A stretch of 40,925 nucleotides of DNA from an uncultured Chromatiaceae bacterium (lineage in GTDB: Bacteria > Pseudomonadota > Gammaproteobacteria > JAADHS01), in the NCBI GenBank assembly GCA_945787615.1, contig CALZJI010000306.1:1-40925 (forward strand), read 5' to 3'. Below, in pieces: positions 22,714 through 31,011 of the stretch. A program made the position numbers and the translations under genes. Below the pieces are notes generated by a model. The model was not told where the DNA came from. It saw nothing but the letters and a program-made list of their open reading frames with translations, and did not search any database. Numbering within the stretch: the first letter of the stretch is position 1; every line of letters starts with the position of its first letter.

Positions 22714-25700
22714 GTGCTGATATTTCGCGGTGCCGCGGCACTTTCCCCCTTTCGAGTCGAGAAGCTGTCGAAACTCGTCCGTCAATATGTGCCCAGGTTA
22801 AACGGGATTGAAACCCATTACGTTTATTTTGCTGATCTAGAACAAGCCCTTGATGAGGCACAAGCGCAACGGCTCGCGACGCTTTTAAATTCTGAAGCAG
22901 TCGATGAGACCCTTGCCTGTTCTCAACCGGATGTGTTGATTGTACCGCGGCTGGGAACGATCTCACCGTGGTCGAGTAAAGCCTCCGACATTGTACACAA
23001 TTGTGGGTTGAGTACGGTGCGGCGCGTCGAACGTGGTGTGGCTTATTTCTTCGCTAAATCGGACAGCACGGCATTGACCAGCAGCGAACACACGTCGGTC
23101 GTGCCGTTAATCCACGATCGAATGACAGAGGCCGTCTTGTTTAGCCTCAATGAGGCGGAAGGGCTATTTGCGTATGCGGAGCCTGCCGCGCTGACTACGG
23201 TCGATATATTAAGCACCGGCCGCGATGCGTTAGTGTATGCCAATGGGGAACTAGGGCTGGCGCTTGCCGAAGACGAGATCGATTACTTGGCGGAAAATTT
23301 CTCTAGCCTTAAGCGAAATCCCACAGACGTAGAGCTGATGATGTTTGCCCAGGCCAACTCTGAGCATTGTCGACACAAAATTTTTAATGCCGATTGGGTA
23401 ATTGACGGCAAGGCGATGGATCGCTCACTGTTTGGGATGATACGCAATACGCACGAAAAGTGCCCGCAAGGTGTTCTTTCCGCGTATAAAGATAATGCCG
23501 CCGTTACGCAAGGCCCGGTGTCGCACTGGTTCTTTCCGGATCCAAACGACAACGTGTACGGCTACCACGAAGAACCCAGTCATATTTTAATGAAGGTGGA
23601 GACCCACAACCACCCCACTGCAATTTCGCCTTTTTCCGGAGCCGCGACCGGTTCGGGAGGGGAGATCCGTGATGAAGGCGCGACGGGTCGCGGCTCGAAG
23701 CCTAAGGCGGGGCTGGTTGGATTCTCGGTGTCGAACTTGCGTATTCCGGGAGGCGAGCAGCCATGGGAAACCGACTACGGTACACCGCAGAGGATTGTCT
23801 CGGCGTTAGAGATCATGCTAGAGGCGCCTCTCGGCGCGGCGGCTTTCAACAACGAATTCGGCAGACCGAATATATGTGGTTACTTTCGAACATTTGAGGA
23901 GGAGGTGCCGGGGCCGAACGGACGGGAAATACGGGGCTATCATAAGCCCATTATGGTCGCCGGCGGTGTTGGTAATATTCGTTCGGGTGATGTGGAAAAG
24001 GGGAAGATTGCGCCTGCGGCGCAACTCATTGTGTTGGGTGGACCAGCGATGTTGATTGGGTTGGGCGGCGGTGCGGCCTCGTCAATGGCTTCCGGAGCAA
24101 GCAGCGAAGACTTGGACTTCGCATCCGTCCAACGTAGCAATCCCGAAATGCAGCGACGTTGCCAGGAAGTGATCAATCAATGTATTCAATTAGGTGAGCG
24201 CAACCCCCTCGTTTCCGTTCACGACGTCGGGGCGGGGGGGTTGTCTAATGCTTTACCCGAGTTGGTTCATGGCAGCGGTCTGGGCGGACGGTTCGAATTG
24301 AGGACCATACCCAACGATGATTTGGGGATGTCACCGATGGAAGTATGGTGTAACGAAGCTCAGGAACGTTATGTCATGGCGGTAGCACGTGACGACCTCG
24401 ATCGGTTTCGCGATATTTGCGAACGTGAGCGGTGTCCGTTTGCCGTCATTGGCGAGGCTACGGCCGAAGCACAACTGATGTTGGGTGACGCTCATTTCGA
24501 TAATACGCCCATTGATATTTCGATGGATGTGTTGTTAGGTAAACCGCCTAAGATGCTGCGAGACGTACGTCATAAGCTTTTTCCCAAACAAGACTTCGAA
24601 ACGGCCGGCATTACGATAAGCGACGCGCTAGGAAGCGTGCTAAGACTACCCTCTGTCGCCAACAAGGGGTTTCTCGTCACCATTGGCGATCGTAGCGTCA
24701 CGGGACAGGTTGCGCGCGACCAAATGGTGGGACCGTGGCAAGTTCCGGTGGCCGATGTGGCGGTGACGACCGCCGGCTTTTTGTCTCATCGTGGCGAGGC
24801 GATGGCCATGGGCGAGCGTACGCCCATCGCCGTACTCGACCACGCCTCGTCGGCGCGTATTGCCGTCGGCGAAGCCCTGACTAATATAGTCGCTGCGCGC
24901 ATCGCGCGTATAGGTGATATCGTGTTGTCTGCCAATTGGATGGCGGCTGCCGGTCACGCGGGGGAGGACGCGGGTTTATTTGACGCTGTGAAAGCCGTTG
25001 GAATGGATCTGTGTCCCGCACTGGGCATTGCCGTTCCCGTTGGAAAGGACTCCATGTCCATGAAGACCGTGTGGCAGCAAAACGGTGAGGAAAAAACGGT
25101 TACTGCCCCGTTGTCGCTGATCGTCTCCGCATTTGCCCCCACTGTCGATTGCCGCAAAACGTTAACACCGCAGCTGATCACAGACCAGGGCGATACGGAT
25201 CTTATTTTTCTTGATCTGGGTAAAGGCGCGAACCGGCTTGGCGGATCGGCATTGGCGCAAGTGTATAAGCAGGTTGGGCGCTATGCCCCTGACGTAGATG
25301 ATCCCGGGGCATTAAAAGCCTTTTTCACTTCCATCCAAGATCTTAATGAAGACCGATTGTTGCTTGCCTATCACGATCGTTCCGACGGTGGCTTGCTTAC
25401 CACATTATGTGAAATGAGCTTCGCTGGCCACACCGGTATAACAATAGATATCGACGGTCTTGGTGACGACCCGGTGGCCGCGCTTTTTAATGAGGAACTC
25501 GGTGCGGTAATTCAAGTCCGTCACAGCGAAACCGATGAGGTCTTGGAGTGGATGCGCGATGTGGGATTGGGCAAACACAGCCACGTCATTGGCACCCTCA
25601 ATGACCATGACCGTATCATTGTCCGTCGAAAACACCAAGCGCTTGTTGACGAATCACGCGTCGTTCTGCAGCGAGTTTGGTCAGAGACGTCCTGGCGTAT

Positions 25701-26613
25701 GCAAACGCTACGTGACAATCCTGTTAGTGCGCAACAAGAATACGACGCGGTGCTGGATAGCGACGACCCTGGGCTCCACGCGGTACTCACCTTCGACCCG
25801 GATGATGATATCTCCGCCCCGTACTTCAACCGAGGCGAGCGGCCCCGCGTGGCCATATTGCGCGAACAAGGGGTCAACGGTCATGTAGAAATGGCGGCGG
25901 CGTTTGAACGCGCCGGCTTCTCGAGCATTGACGTTCATATGAGCGATATCATGTCAGGGCGAGTTACGCTACGTGACTACCGGGGAATCGTTGGCTGCGG
26001 TGGATTTTCCTACGGGGACGTACTGGGTGCGGGCCAAGGCTGGGCAAAATCGATTCTCTATAATCCTCGTGCTCGCGAGGAGTTCGGCGAATTTTTTCAG
26101 CGCTCAGATAGTTTTGGGCTCGGCGTCTGTAACGGCTGCCAGATGATGGCGGGGTTGGGGGACCTCATCCCGGGGAGTGAATTGTGGCCACGCTTTGCCC
26201 GTAATATCTCCGAACAGTTCGAAGCGCGCTTTTCCATGGTAGAAGTGGTTGATTCTCCCTCTCTGTTTTTGCAGGATATGGCTGGGTCTCGATTGCCGAT
26301 TACCGTGGCCCACGGCGAAGGACAAGCCACATTCGGCGGCGAGTCCGATCCGCAACGGGCCATTGAGAACAAGGTTGTGGCGTTGCGTTACGTGGACAAT
26401 TACGGCGAGGTTACTGAGCGCTATCCCGCCAATCCCAACGGTTCGCCTAGAGGCATTACCGGCCTCACAACCTTCGATGGGCGCTTTACGATTATGATGC
26501 CCCATCCAGAGCGGGTATTTCGCACGGTCCAAAACTCATGGCACCCGAGCGACTGGGGGGCGGACGGTGCCTGGTTGCGATTGTTCCGCAACGCACGTAA
26601 ATGGATTGGCTAG
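22714..26613 (+). CDS. purL: Phosphoribosylformylglycinamidine synthase (FGAM synthase), large single-chain form (GTG start)
   Basis: PurL converts FGAR and glutamine to FGAM in the fourth step of purine synthesis. The 1299-residue product is the long proteobacterial type: an N-terminal PurS-like domain, a linker, two AIR-synthase-like halves (with [37 protein letters not shown] and [20 protein letters not shown]), and a C-terminal glutamine amidotransferase with [13 protein letters not shown] (nucleophile Cys1139) and the terminal [10 protein letters not shown] histidine and glutamate. Start is GTG at 22714; the nearby ATG at 22709 is out of frame and stops at once. Direct linkage of purC and purL differs from E. 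coli. Confidence 0.96.
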
Positions 26614-27141
26614 TAATCTTTCGGACTGAAAATGAATCTACTGCGGCCGCGGGAAATCGGTCCGATTAATCGATTATTCTCGTTAAATATGGCCGGGTTT
26701 TCTCCATGGAATCGATGAACTGGCCTCGATCTCCCACTTGCCTCGCGACGATCCCCTAAGGGCTCGCGAAAAAATAACTTCGTATTTTTCGCGCCCAGAT
26801 TTGGGTCAGATTTGGAGAATCCGATTGAGAAAAACCGTGGCTGATTCGAGGTTTTTGCGATTGAGGATTGTTCACAGATGGCCCAAAGATGGGATGCGAA
26901 AATTATAAGTTATTTTTTCGCGAGCCCTAAGTCCGACAGATTTCTAGGTTGATCCGTGTCGCCGCATTCTGACTTGAGTATATTTTTTGCATCTCTCAAT
27001 CGTGAATCGAAACCAGGCCTTCCCAGAATCGTCACCGAGACGAAGTCGGCCAACGTAGTAATAGTAAGGTCTTGAACGCCAACGAACTTTCGGTCTATCC
27101 TTAAGTTTGGATCGGCGAAGCATCAATGGAGAGTGGTTCGC
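26614..27141. other. 528-bp intergenic region after purL
   Basis: This gap contains the MITE-like element (26756-26931) and, before it, a perfect dyad AATCGG-T-CCGATT at 26655-26667. No open frame looks coding. No classical terminator for purL is visible immediately after its stop; the first strong hairpin is the one inside the element (CGCGAAAAA / TTTTTCGCG, 26765-26793). The last 200 bp before the Bax-like gene show no clear promoter. Confidence 0.55.
26756..26931. mobile_element. MITE-like element with terminal inverted repeats and target duplication
   Basis: A 166-bp body (26761-26926) is bounded by perfect 20-bp inverted repeats: GGCTCGCGAAAAAATAACTT on the left (26761-26780) and its exact complement on the right (26907-26926). 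It is flanked on both sides by CTAAG (26756-26760 and 26927-26931), a candidate 5-bp target duplication. It encodes no protein. The left repeat also forms a local hairpin with TTTTTCGCG at 26785-26793. The interior has a direct repeat of CAGATTTGG. Non-autonomous elements of this kind are moved by a transposase elsewhere; I cannot name the family. Confidence 0.75.
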
Positions 27142-28137
27142 ATGAGTGAGACCCGACGTCAAGTTTACATCGCCAGCGCCGTGTTTATGCCGGTGTTCAT
27201 GGCTTCTATTCTCGCTTGGGTCGGAGTATCACTTCGGCTGACCGTGGACAGTCCGGCTACTAGCCCCCTTGTGATGTGGGTGGGCGAAGGCGTTTTGTTG
27301 CCTGTCGAAGCGAATTCCGCCGTGGAATTAGAGGCTTATTTTGACCAGAGTGGTTACGGTTGGCTGCCATCCCCCGGTCCGACTGTGCTAGCCGTCGAGG
27401 TTGCGGCCATCCCGCCTGACCTTGGCGCCTTGAAAGACGTTCGGCGTAAAAAATCGCTATTTTTTCGCGCCTTGCTGCCTATAGTCTTATCGGAGAACAA
27501 CAGCATACGCGCGCAGCGCGCACTACTTGTACAACTGCTTCATAAGGGCGAGCCATCCCTGACCAGGGAAGAGCGCACCTGGCTGGAAAAGCTGGCCCGT
27601 TGGTACCGCGTGAAGGGTGACGCTCACGACGAGCGCGTTAGCGAACAGTTGCTCGCCCGCGTGGACGAGATCCCCGCTGAATTGGTGTTGGCCCAAGCCG
27701 CCAATGAGAGCGCCTGGGGTACTTCGCGTTTCGCCCAATTGGGTAACAATTTGTTTGGAATGTGGACGTTCGATGAGACGGAGGGTATCGTTCCTGCGCA
27801 GCGCACTAAGGGTCTTCGCCACGCGGTAAAGGCTTATCCCTCGGTCCGAGATTCGGTGCGAGCGTACATGCGTAATCTTAACACCCATAGGGCTTACGAG
27901 ACGCTGCGTAAATTGCGCAAACAGACTCGGGCGGCTGGCGACGCCATAAACGGAAAACAACTCGCTGGCGGGTTGTTGCGTTATTCGCAGCGTGGTCAGG
28001 CGTACGTCGATGAGCTACGTTCGATGATTCGTTCCAATAATCTCATCAAAGTCCGTTCCACGTCATTACGCACGGTTGAGAACCAAACACGCGTGTTCCT
28101 GCAGTCAGCTAGGGTTGACGGAGCCACGGGTGGCTAA
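27142..28137 (+). CDS. Bax-like membrane-anchored glucosaminidase-domain protein
   Basis: The 331-residue product has an N-terminal membrane segment (about 8-32, MPVFMASILAWVGVSL) and a C-terminal mannosyl-glycoprotein endo-beta-N-acetylglucosaminidase domain of the Bax/FlgJ/LytG type. The catalytic glutamate is in AANESAWGTSRFAQLGNN (Glu189), followed by LFGMWTF and YPSVRDSVRAYMRNLNTHRA. Such enzymes cleave peptidoglycan; E. coli Bax is the nearest named relative. I chose the ATG at 27142 over the GTG at 27133; GGAGAG at 27128-27133 fits the ATG. Its 3' end overlaps the convergent polysaccharide deacetylase gene by 29 bp. Confidence 0.85.
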   Translation: MSETRRQVYIASAVFMPVFMASILAWVGVSLRLTVDSPATSPLVMWVGEGVLLPVEANSAVELEAYFDQSGYGWLPSPGPTVLAVEVAAIPPDLGALKDVRRKKSLFFRALLPIVLSENNSIRAQRALLVQLLHKGEPSLTREERTWLEKLARWYRVKGDAHDERVSEQLLARVDEIPAELVLAQAANESAWGTSRFAQLGNNLFGMWTFDETEGIVPAQRTKGLRHAVKAYPSVRDSVRAYMRNLNTHRAYETLRKLRKQTRAAGDAINGKQLAGGLLRYSQRGQAYVDELRSMIRSNNLIKVRSTSLRTVENQTRVFLQSARVDGATGG

Positions 28138-29401: not shown

Positions 29402-30358
29402 ATGTTGATCAAAGCGCCAAAAAACAGTGACGTGTCTTCTTCGGAGATTACCGACGAAACGCTTTTTAGGCAGCGACGCCGTTTTTTACGTACCGCCGTT
29501 AACCTCGCATTAACCTCGACCATCGCTACTCCATTATTCGTACCTGCTAGCGCTCGTGCCGGAACTAAGCTTTCCAACGTAAAGAAAAGCGCTTATACCA
29601 TTGATGAAGAACTGACGCCTTTTGAAGATGTCACCCACTACAACAATTTTTATGAGTTTACGACTGAGAAGCGAGATGTCGCGGAGATGGCGCAAGGATT
29701 TCAAGCGCGGCCGTGGACTGTGGAAGTGAATGGCGAAGTGCACAAGCCTCGAACTTTCGATATCGATGATGCTATTAAGCGCTATGCTTTAGAAGAACGA
29801 ATTTATCGCCTTCGTTGTGTGGAGGCGTGGTCTATGGTAATTCCCTGGGTGGGATTCCCGTTAGCGAAATTGCTCAAAGACGTTGAACCCACTGCCAATG
29901 GGAAATACGTCGAATTTACGACGTTGCATGATCCCGAGAGAATGCCGGGCCAGCGACGGAAGGTGCTGCCTTGGCCGTATGTGGAGGGTCTGCGGTTAGA
30001 CGAGGCCATGCATCCGTTAACAATTCTGGCAGTGGGGTTGTACGGGGAGGTTCTTCCGCCGCAAAACGGCGCGCCATTACGCTTAGTGGTACCATGGAAA
30101 TACGGGTTTAAGTGTATAAAATCCATTGTTCGGATTCGTCTCACCGAAAAACAGCCTCGGAACACGTGGCAGGTTAACAATGCCCGTGAGTACGGGTTCT
30201 ACGCCAATGTGAATCCCAATGTCGATCACCCCCGCTGGAGCCAGTCCCGCGAGCGCCGTATTGGCGAGTTCTTCAAACGAAAGACGCTCATGTTCAACGG
30301 CTATGGGGAAGAGGTAGCCGGTTTATATACGGGGATGGATCTTGCCAAATTCTATTAG
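29402..30358 (+). CDS. msrP: Protein-methionine-sulfoxide reductase catalytic subunit MsrP
   Basis: MsrP (YedY) is a periplasmic molybdoenzyme that repairs oxidised methionines with electrons from MsrQ. The 318-residue product has a twin-arginine signal ([17 protein letters not shown], cleavage near PASARA at about 52) and the sulfite-oxidase fold with the molybdenum-binding Cys139 in [20 protein letters not shown]. The later blocks [34 protein letters not shown] and [20 protein letters not shown] are diagnostic. AGGGA lies ten bases before the ATG. msrQ follows after 14 bp, so the two form an operon. Confidence 0.96.
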
Positions 30359-30372
30359 CAGGTGTTAGCGAC

Positions 30373-31011
30373 GTGGCTATGAACTCTGAGCTGTGGCTGC
30401 GACGCATCGTAAAGCCCACCGTTTTTTTCGTTTCGCTGTTGCCCGCGACGCTGTTGACTTGGTATGCTTTAACCGACCAGCTCGGTGCCAATCCGATCGA
30501 AGAGATAGTTCGTACAAGCGGCGATTGGACGCTGCGTTTCTTATTGATTACGCTGGCCATAACGCCAACGCGCCGTCTGAGCGGTTTTCATTGGATTGCT
30601 CGTCTACGACGCATGATCGGCTTATTTGCCTTTTTTTACGCCTGTCTTCATTTCTTGTCTTACCTGGTGTTAGATCAGTTTTTCGCTTGGGGTGAAATTT
30701 TAAAAGATATCTTAAAACGGCCTTTCATTACCGTCGGGCTGGTCTCTTTCGTAATGTTAGTGCCGTTGGCCGTCACCTCGACCAATAAAATGATGAAACG
30801 GCTTGGCGGTAAACGGTGGCAGCGACTGCACCAATCGGTTTATATCATTGCCTGCGGCGGTGTGCTTCACTACCTATGGATGGTGAAAGCCGATATCCGC
30901 GATCCAATTATTTACGGCTCCATATTGATACTCTTATTAAGTCATCGCGCTTGGTCGAAAAGAAAAGAAGAGGCGGTGCGTAGACGGCGGGCACATTCCG
31001 CTACTATATAG
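30373..31011 (+). CDS. msrQ: MsrQ, heme-binding membrane subunit of the MsrPQ system (GTG start)
   Basis: MsrQ (YedZ) is a b-type heme membrane protein that passes quinone-derived electrons to MsrP. The 212-residue product has about six hydrophobic segments and the family blocks TGDWTLRFLLITLAITPTRR-like (here SGDWTLRFLLITLAITPTRR), FFYACLHFLSYLVLDQ with a heme-ligand histidine, and WQRLHQSVYIIACGGVLHYL with further histidines. I prefer the GTG at 30373 because AGGTG (30360-30364) lies eight bases upstream; the ATG at 30379 would remove two residues. Confidence 0.93.
   Translation: MAMNSELWLRRIVKPTVFFVSLLPATLLTWYALTDQLGANPIEEIVRTSGDWTLRFLLITLAITPTRRLSGFHWIARLRRMIGLFAFFYACLHFLSYLVLDQFFAWGEILKDILKRPFITVGLVSFVMLVPLAVTSTNKMMKRLGGKRWQRLHQSVYIIACGGVLHYLWMVKADIRDPIIYGSILILLLSHRAWSKRKEEAVRRRRAHSATI

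Follow-up and report, generated by a model that had tools for sequence, protein, structure and literature searches.

What is the short element that lies downstream of purL in an uncultured Chromatiaceae bacterium, and does its body do anything? MITE bodies are usually regarded as filler between transposase-binding ends. The window was the whole analysed stretch of 40,925 nucleotides (contig CALZJI010000306.1, assembly GCA_945787615.1), and its source genome is a draft assembly with 616 contigs, a total length of 4.06 Mb and a completeness of 85%. An earlier, sequence-only reading of the window had described a gene-less, MITE-like element with 20-bp perfect ends, a 166-bp body and a 5-bp CTAAG duplication.

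The element, its copies and its surroundings

The element was read directly from the sequence as 168 bp with perfect 21-bp inverted ends (Table 1). The span given earlier (26756-26931) was correct and the inverted ends are exact, as had been seen; the lengths of the element, its ends and the duplication were revised. Arms of 67 nt with 75% complementarity were found by a repeat search. No ORF reaching 90 aa was found inside, in agreement with the description of the element as gene-less.

Table 1. Window coordinates of the element, its parts and the adjoining genes
Feature	Position	Strand	Basis or remark
purL, upstream gene	22714..26613	+	gene call; stop at 26613
Left TAA target duplication, 3 bp	26757..26759	.	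sequence; family statistics
MITE	26760..26927	+	168 bp; apex 11 bp shorter than the 179-bp family consensus
Left TIR GGGCTCGCGAAAAAATAACTT	26760..26780	+	sequence read; identical end adjoins ISAzo13 transposase fragments in L045
Conserved hairpin core	26785..26902 (approximate limits)	+	predicted fold and covariation
Right TIR	26907..26927	-	exact reverse complement of left TIR GGGCTCGCGAAAAAATAACTT
Right TAA target duplication, 3 bp	26928..26930	.	sequence; family statistics
Glucosaminidase-domain (PF01832) gene, downstream	27133..28137	+	gene call and domain match; start near 27133

The flanks read C-TAA (26756-26759) and TAA-G (26928-26931). Among the 58 copies in the window genome with usable flanks, an exact 3-bp repeat was present in 47 (27 TTA, 20 TAA). 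Positions outside the duplication varied, with C favoured in 43/58 and G in 38/58. On these flank statistics the duplication is 3-bp TWA (TAA at the window copy) in a CTWAG-like target, and the 5-bp duplication proposed earlier was abandoned. The CTAAG flank is composite: it is partly a CTWAG target preference and partly the terminal G and C of the element.

A 201-base query against the window genome yielded 40 scored candidates, all with at least 84% identity. The 19-base end pattern, allowing up to 2 mismatches, occurred 269 times, compared with once for a reversed-pattern control. At least 84 MITE copies were recovered by a central motif search, so the absence of any other copy, named earlier as the observation that would count against the element, is not what the genome holds. 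The family consensus is 179 bp, and subfamilies with related ends also occur. TIRs, a target duplication, multiple copies and the lack of a transposase gene make it near certain that the element is a MITE; its earlier description as non-autonomous agrees with the copy number and with the IS relatives with similar ends described below.

None of the 84 distinct copies lay inside a called gene, the gene calls for this analysis being made by a codon-usage heuristic. Copies in the window genome were biased in orientation relative to genes (37:15, p 0.003), whereas Desulfobacterota copies were not (42:34, p 0.42). A gene-orientation rule was dropped and no bias is claimed, since it was not replicated outside the window genome. 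Many contigs of the draft begin or end approximately 100-120 bp inside a copy (C20, C46, C193, C234, C366, C447, C453, C516, C518 and others), and from these breaks the MITE is taken to be a main cause of the fragmentation of the draft.

The position between purL and a peptidoglycan hydrolase gene was confirmed, the downstream gene having a glucosaminidase domain (PF01832). A syntenic purL-glucosaminidase pair without the MITE was found in G001, a member of the window genome's family. The empty-site comparison proposed earlier thus shows an empty site at the gene level only, the intergenic DNA of G001 and the window not being alignable. Further downstream, at 29402-31011, adjoining genes encode an oxidoreductase molybdopterin-binding domain (PF00174) and a ferric-reductase-like membrane domain (PF01794); we take this pair to be MsrP/MsrQ-like.

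A probable transposase link

GTDB species genomes were scanned for the exact 21-base end, which was found in 53 stretches. Their titles were mostly Desulfobacterales or other Deltaproteobacteria; the remainder included some Myxococcales, Sedimenticola, Wenzhouxiangella, and MAGs labelled Bacteroidetes and Thiotrichales. In one stretch (L045) the identical end lay upstream of ISAzo13-family transposase fragments (PF07592), and a remnant of an ISAzo13 transposase followed the same or a near-same end in three genomes (L045, L104, L103). A search of 389 genomes of Desulfatitalea's order gave Desulfobacterales ISAzo13 elements with TWA duplications and GG...AAATAAC ends, some of which terminate in GGGCTCACGCAAAAATAACTTCACATTTTTG (L136, L104), close to the MITE ends. 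In a second genome of the window genome's family (G002), the ends of the MITEs (GGAACGAGCACGTAATAACTT) agree with that of a resident ISAzo13 remnant (GGAACGTGCACGAAATAACTT), both having an end variant different from that of the window copy. ISAzo13 is known to make 3-bp duplications (PMC10045372). From the matching ends and the 3-bp TWA duplication, the element is likely a MITE of ISAzo13 type. The expectation of an IS with the same ends was supported by these similar or identical ends, although the 5-bp duplication expected with it was replaced by 3-bp TWA. An ISAzo13-family transposase made elsewhere would bind the MITE ends and transfer the element to TWA sites by a cut-and-paste mechanism.

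No intact ISAzo13 with exactly these ends was found in the window assembly, a fragmented draft that breaks at repeats. The only ISAzo13 copy there (G000:C602:17377-18686, L098) is broken and has ends (GGGCCGCGGAAAAAATAA) unlike those of the MITE, which suggests that the active partner is either missing from the assembly or lost. This copy has TAA duplications and GGGCC(G/A)CGGAAAAAA ends, and its transposase is frameshifted and contains stops. Similar ends (GGGCCGCGG) adjoin some MITE copies (L011, L019), a hint of a second MITE family. Five IS4/IS5-type transposases (PF01609) in the window genome were rejected as candidates: the loci examined had no MITE ends, the sole exception being a partial match (L031) at the ISAzo13 end of contig C602. 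Plasmid and phage searches gave no match.

A hairpin core that keeps its pairing

RNA folding of the whole window MITE gave an end-to-end fold of -90.5 kcal/mol on the plus strand (z -11.3) and -66.2 kcal/mol on the minus strand (z -9.0), the plus strand being far the more stable. MITEs of other phyla shared this strand preference and carried the oriented central motif CAGGAATAGCnAGCTATTTCGAGG. In the cultured Desulfatitalea alkaliphila a central motif search matched 9 copies. The self-folding left end recorded earlier is genuine, but that reading missed the conserved hairpin formed by the entire body. In alignment A1 (11 diverged copies), pairing-preserving double changes were present in 30 of 64 pairs, compared with 10.0 +- 2.3 in shuffles and 5-12 in slid versions. 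Alignment A3 comprised 25 diverged core sequences and was made without reference to structure. It had compensatory changes in 39/44 pairs (22.1 +- 2.4 in shuffles), 193 compensatory cells (56 in shuffles) and 91.7% paired cells (32-49% in slid versions). Compensatory base-pair changes above controls are one mark of a structured RNA, and the core shows them; it matched no curated model in Rfam. Several copies in one genome (L300-L306 and L310-L315, G163) have additional blocks near CAGGTAAGCGAAGACTCCG and GTGCCGCGAAGCAAATGCCCTTGGGG; the positions of these blocks are fixed, which looks like the insertion of small modules into the hairpin.

A hold-out covariance model was built from nine Desulfobacterota copies, with no sequence from the window genome. 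It scored the window copy at 129.9 bits on the plus strand and 71 on the minus strand, and had matches in 32 of the 369 genomes searched from the window's class (27 of the 272 genera sampled), a class taken from gene content to be Gammaproteobacteria. Core-model hits were also found between other ends: TA-flanked TACYC ends (L346-L349, L351, L039), TGCCTAACA (L339), and GGAACCTCTGAT ends with repeats of roughly 4 bp (L355, L359, L360, L364 and others). Weak covariance hits, at 50-64 bits, could be generic hairpins, and pair-permuted controls were therefore run with a profile that uses only the sequence of the Desulfobacterota core. A window-genome copy scored 105.7 bits (best of 100 pair-permuted hairpins, 8.5) and TA-flanked cores 25-47 bits (permuted hairpins, at most 8.2), so the TA-flanked cores are homologues rather than arbitrary hairpins. 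Members of the GGAACCTCTGAT class that were tested scored 13-20 bits, compared with at most 6 in controls; the single Myxococcota copy scored only 5.0 bits.

Judged by these profile scores, the core is common to ISAzo13-like (TWA) ends and TA-flanked TACYC ends, and it probably also lies between GGAACCTCTGAT ends as a third type. Compensatory changes preserve its pairing across Desulfobacterota and the window's class, and between unrelated ends. A source of the TACYC ends was sought among IS630-type transposases (PF13358); these were absent from G066, G565 and G558, and the one in G018 had no TACYC ends around it. In the single-contig genome G066 three hairpins (L039, L348, L349) have the same core and different TACYC-type ends. 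Tentatively, and short of an even chance, we suggest that what is conserved may be the hairpin core itself, as a module of structured RNA that travels in MITEs derived from more than one unrelated kind of transposon (ISAzo13-like, TA-target, and a probable third), with ends swapped and the fold kept across phyla.

Possible function of the core and known systems

Because the ends vary while a covarying fold is kept across phyla, the body either does something or is kept by some other process. We favour, with moderate confidence, the reading that this is a high-copy ISAzo13-type MITE whose hairpin core is under selection for its fold as RNA, likely acting on neighbouring mRNA. Selection of the core as RNA is itself probable to much the same degree, on comparative grounds. 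Conservation of the hairpin shape across phyla, and between elements with different ends, points to the folded molecule itself as being important. The core would be transcribed when a neighbouring transcript reads through it. The RNA would then most likely act on the mRNA that carries it, by affecting how stable that mRNA is or how it is processed, cleavage by a double-strand RNase being one example. Such an mRNA-level effect after read-through is proposed by analogy with ERIC and NEMIS/Correia elements, which form a stable stem-loop when transcribed and for which RNA-level effects on adjoining mRNAs are reported (PMC2229807).

The body could instead be functionless, in an ordinary ISAzo13-derived MITE whose paired changes arise by template-switch correction of imperfect palindromes in replication and whose distribution reflects repeated horizontal spread. 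Transcripts of bacterial MITEs generally form long stem-loops (PMC2229807), and the failure of the orientation bias to replicate is also compatible with this. The near-perfect outer arms could be corrected by template switching, and palindrome correction could contribute part of the covariation in the core. However, correction gives Watson-Crick pairs and does not leave G.U persistently more frequent than A.C. The ratio of G.U to A.C stood at 135:25 cells of A3 for the plus structure and at 44:18 for the minus-derived one, counts that come from related, hence not independent, copies and from a structure drawn from the same alignment. When pairing was scored without favouring G.U, the asymmetry was weaker (inner 140:69) and some orientations were uncertain. 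The surplus of G.U is compatible with selection of a single strand in RNA form. The unpaired apical motifs CGCA / CGAGGA, preserved across cores, and the unrelated ends around the same core also argue against a functionless body, which we consider unlikely.

Selection of the hairpin as single-stranded DNA, as a substrate for replication, cruciform formation or transposition, is less probable again. Hairpins in single-stranded DNA too can show strand-specific conservation, and in DNA a G.T mismatch is a mild one; a one-strand bias by itself cannot separate RNA from single-stranded DNA. The ends and the TWA duplication, on the other hand, point to a DDE transposase that works on double-stranded DNA, and no single-stranded DNA transposase was tied to the MITE. 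The element begins 146 bp past the purL stop. The earlier proposal that it is an intrinsic terminator for purL, which drew on its self-folding left end, can be set aside almost entirely: a scan of the plus strand (26550-27200) gave no terminator-like site and no U tract after the hairpins, the single minus-strand site in that scan falls outside the MITE, and homologous copies are found on either side of genes.

Selection of the core as a folded RNA stays the preferred reading, and a role of the body can be tested directly, since the elements are short, abundant and beside genes. No earlier report of this MITE family or its conserved core was found in the literature searched. The ISAzo13 family (PF07592, Rhodopirellula transposase DDE domain) has a eukaryotic relative, Zator. 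Its elements have in common with these MITEs the 3-bp TWA duplication and GG...AAATAAC ends, but the window element is only 168 bp and has no transposase. ERIC and NEMIS/Correia are likewise MITEs of 100-200 bp, mostly intergenic and forming a stem-loop; they have other ends and other hosts, whereas the core of the present family spans phyla and unrelated ends with base-pair covariation. REP/REPIN sequences are also high-copy intergenic palindromes. They are much shorter units mobilised by RAYT transposases, whereas the window MITE has long ends and a TWA duplication.
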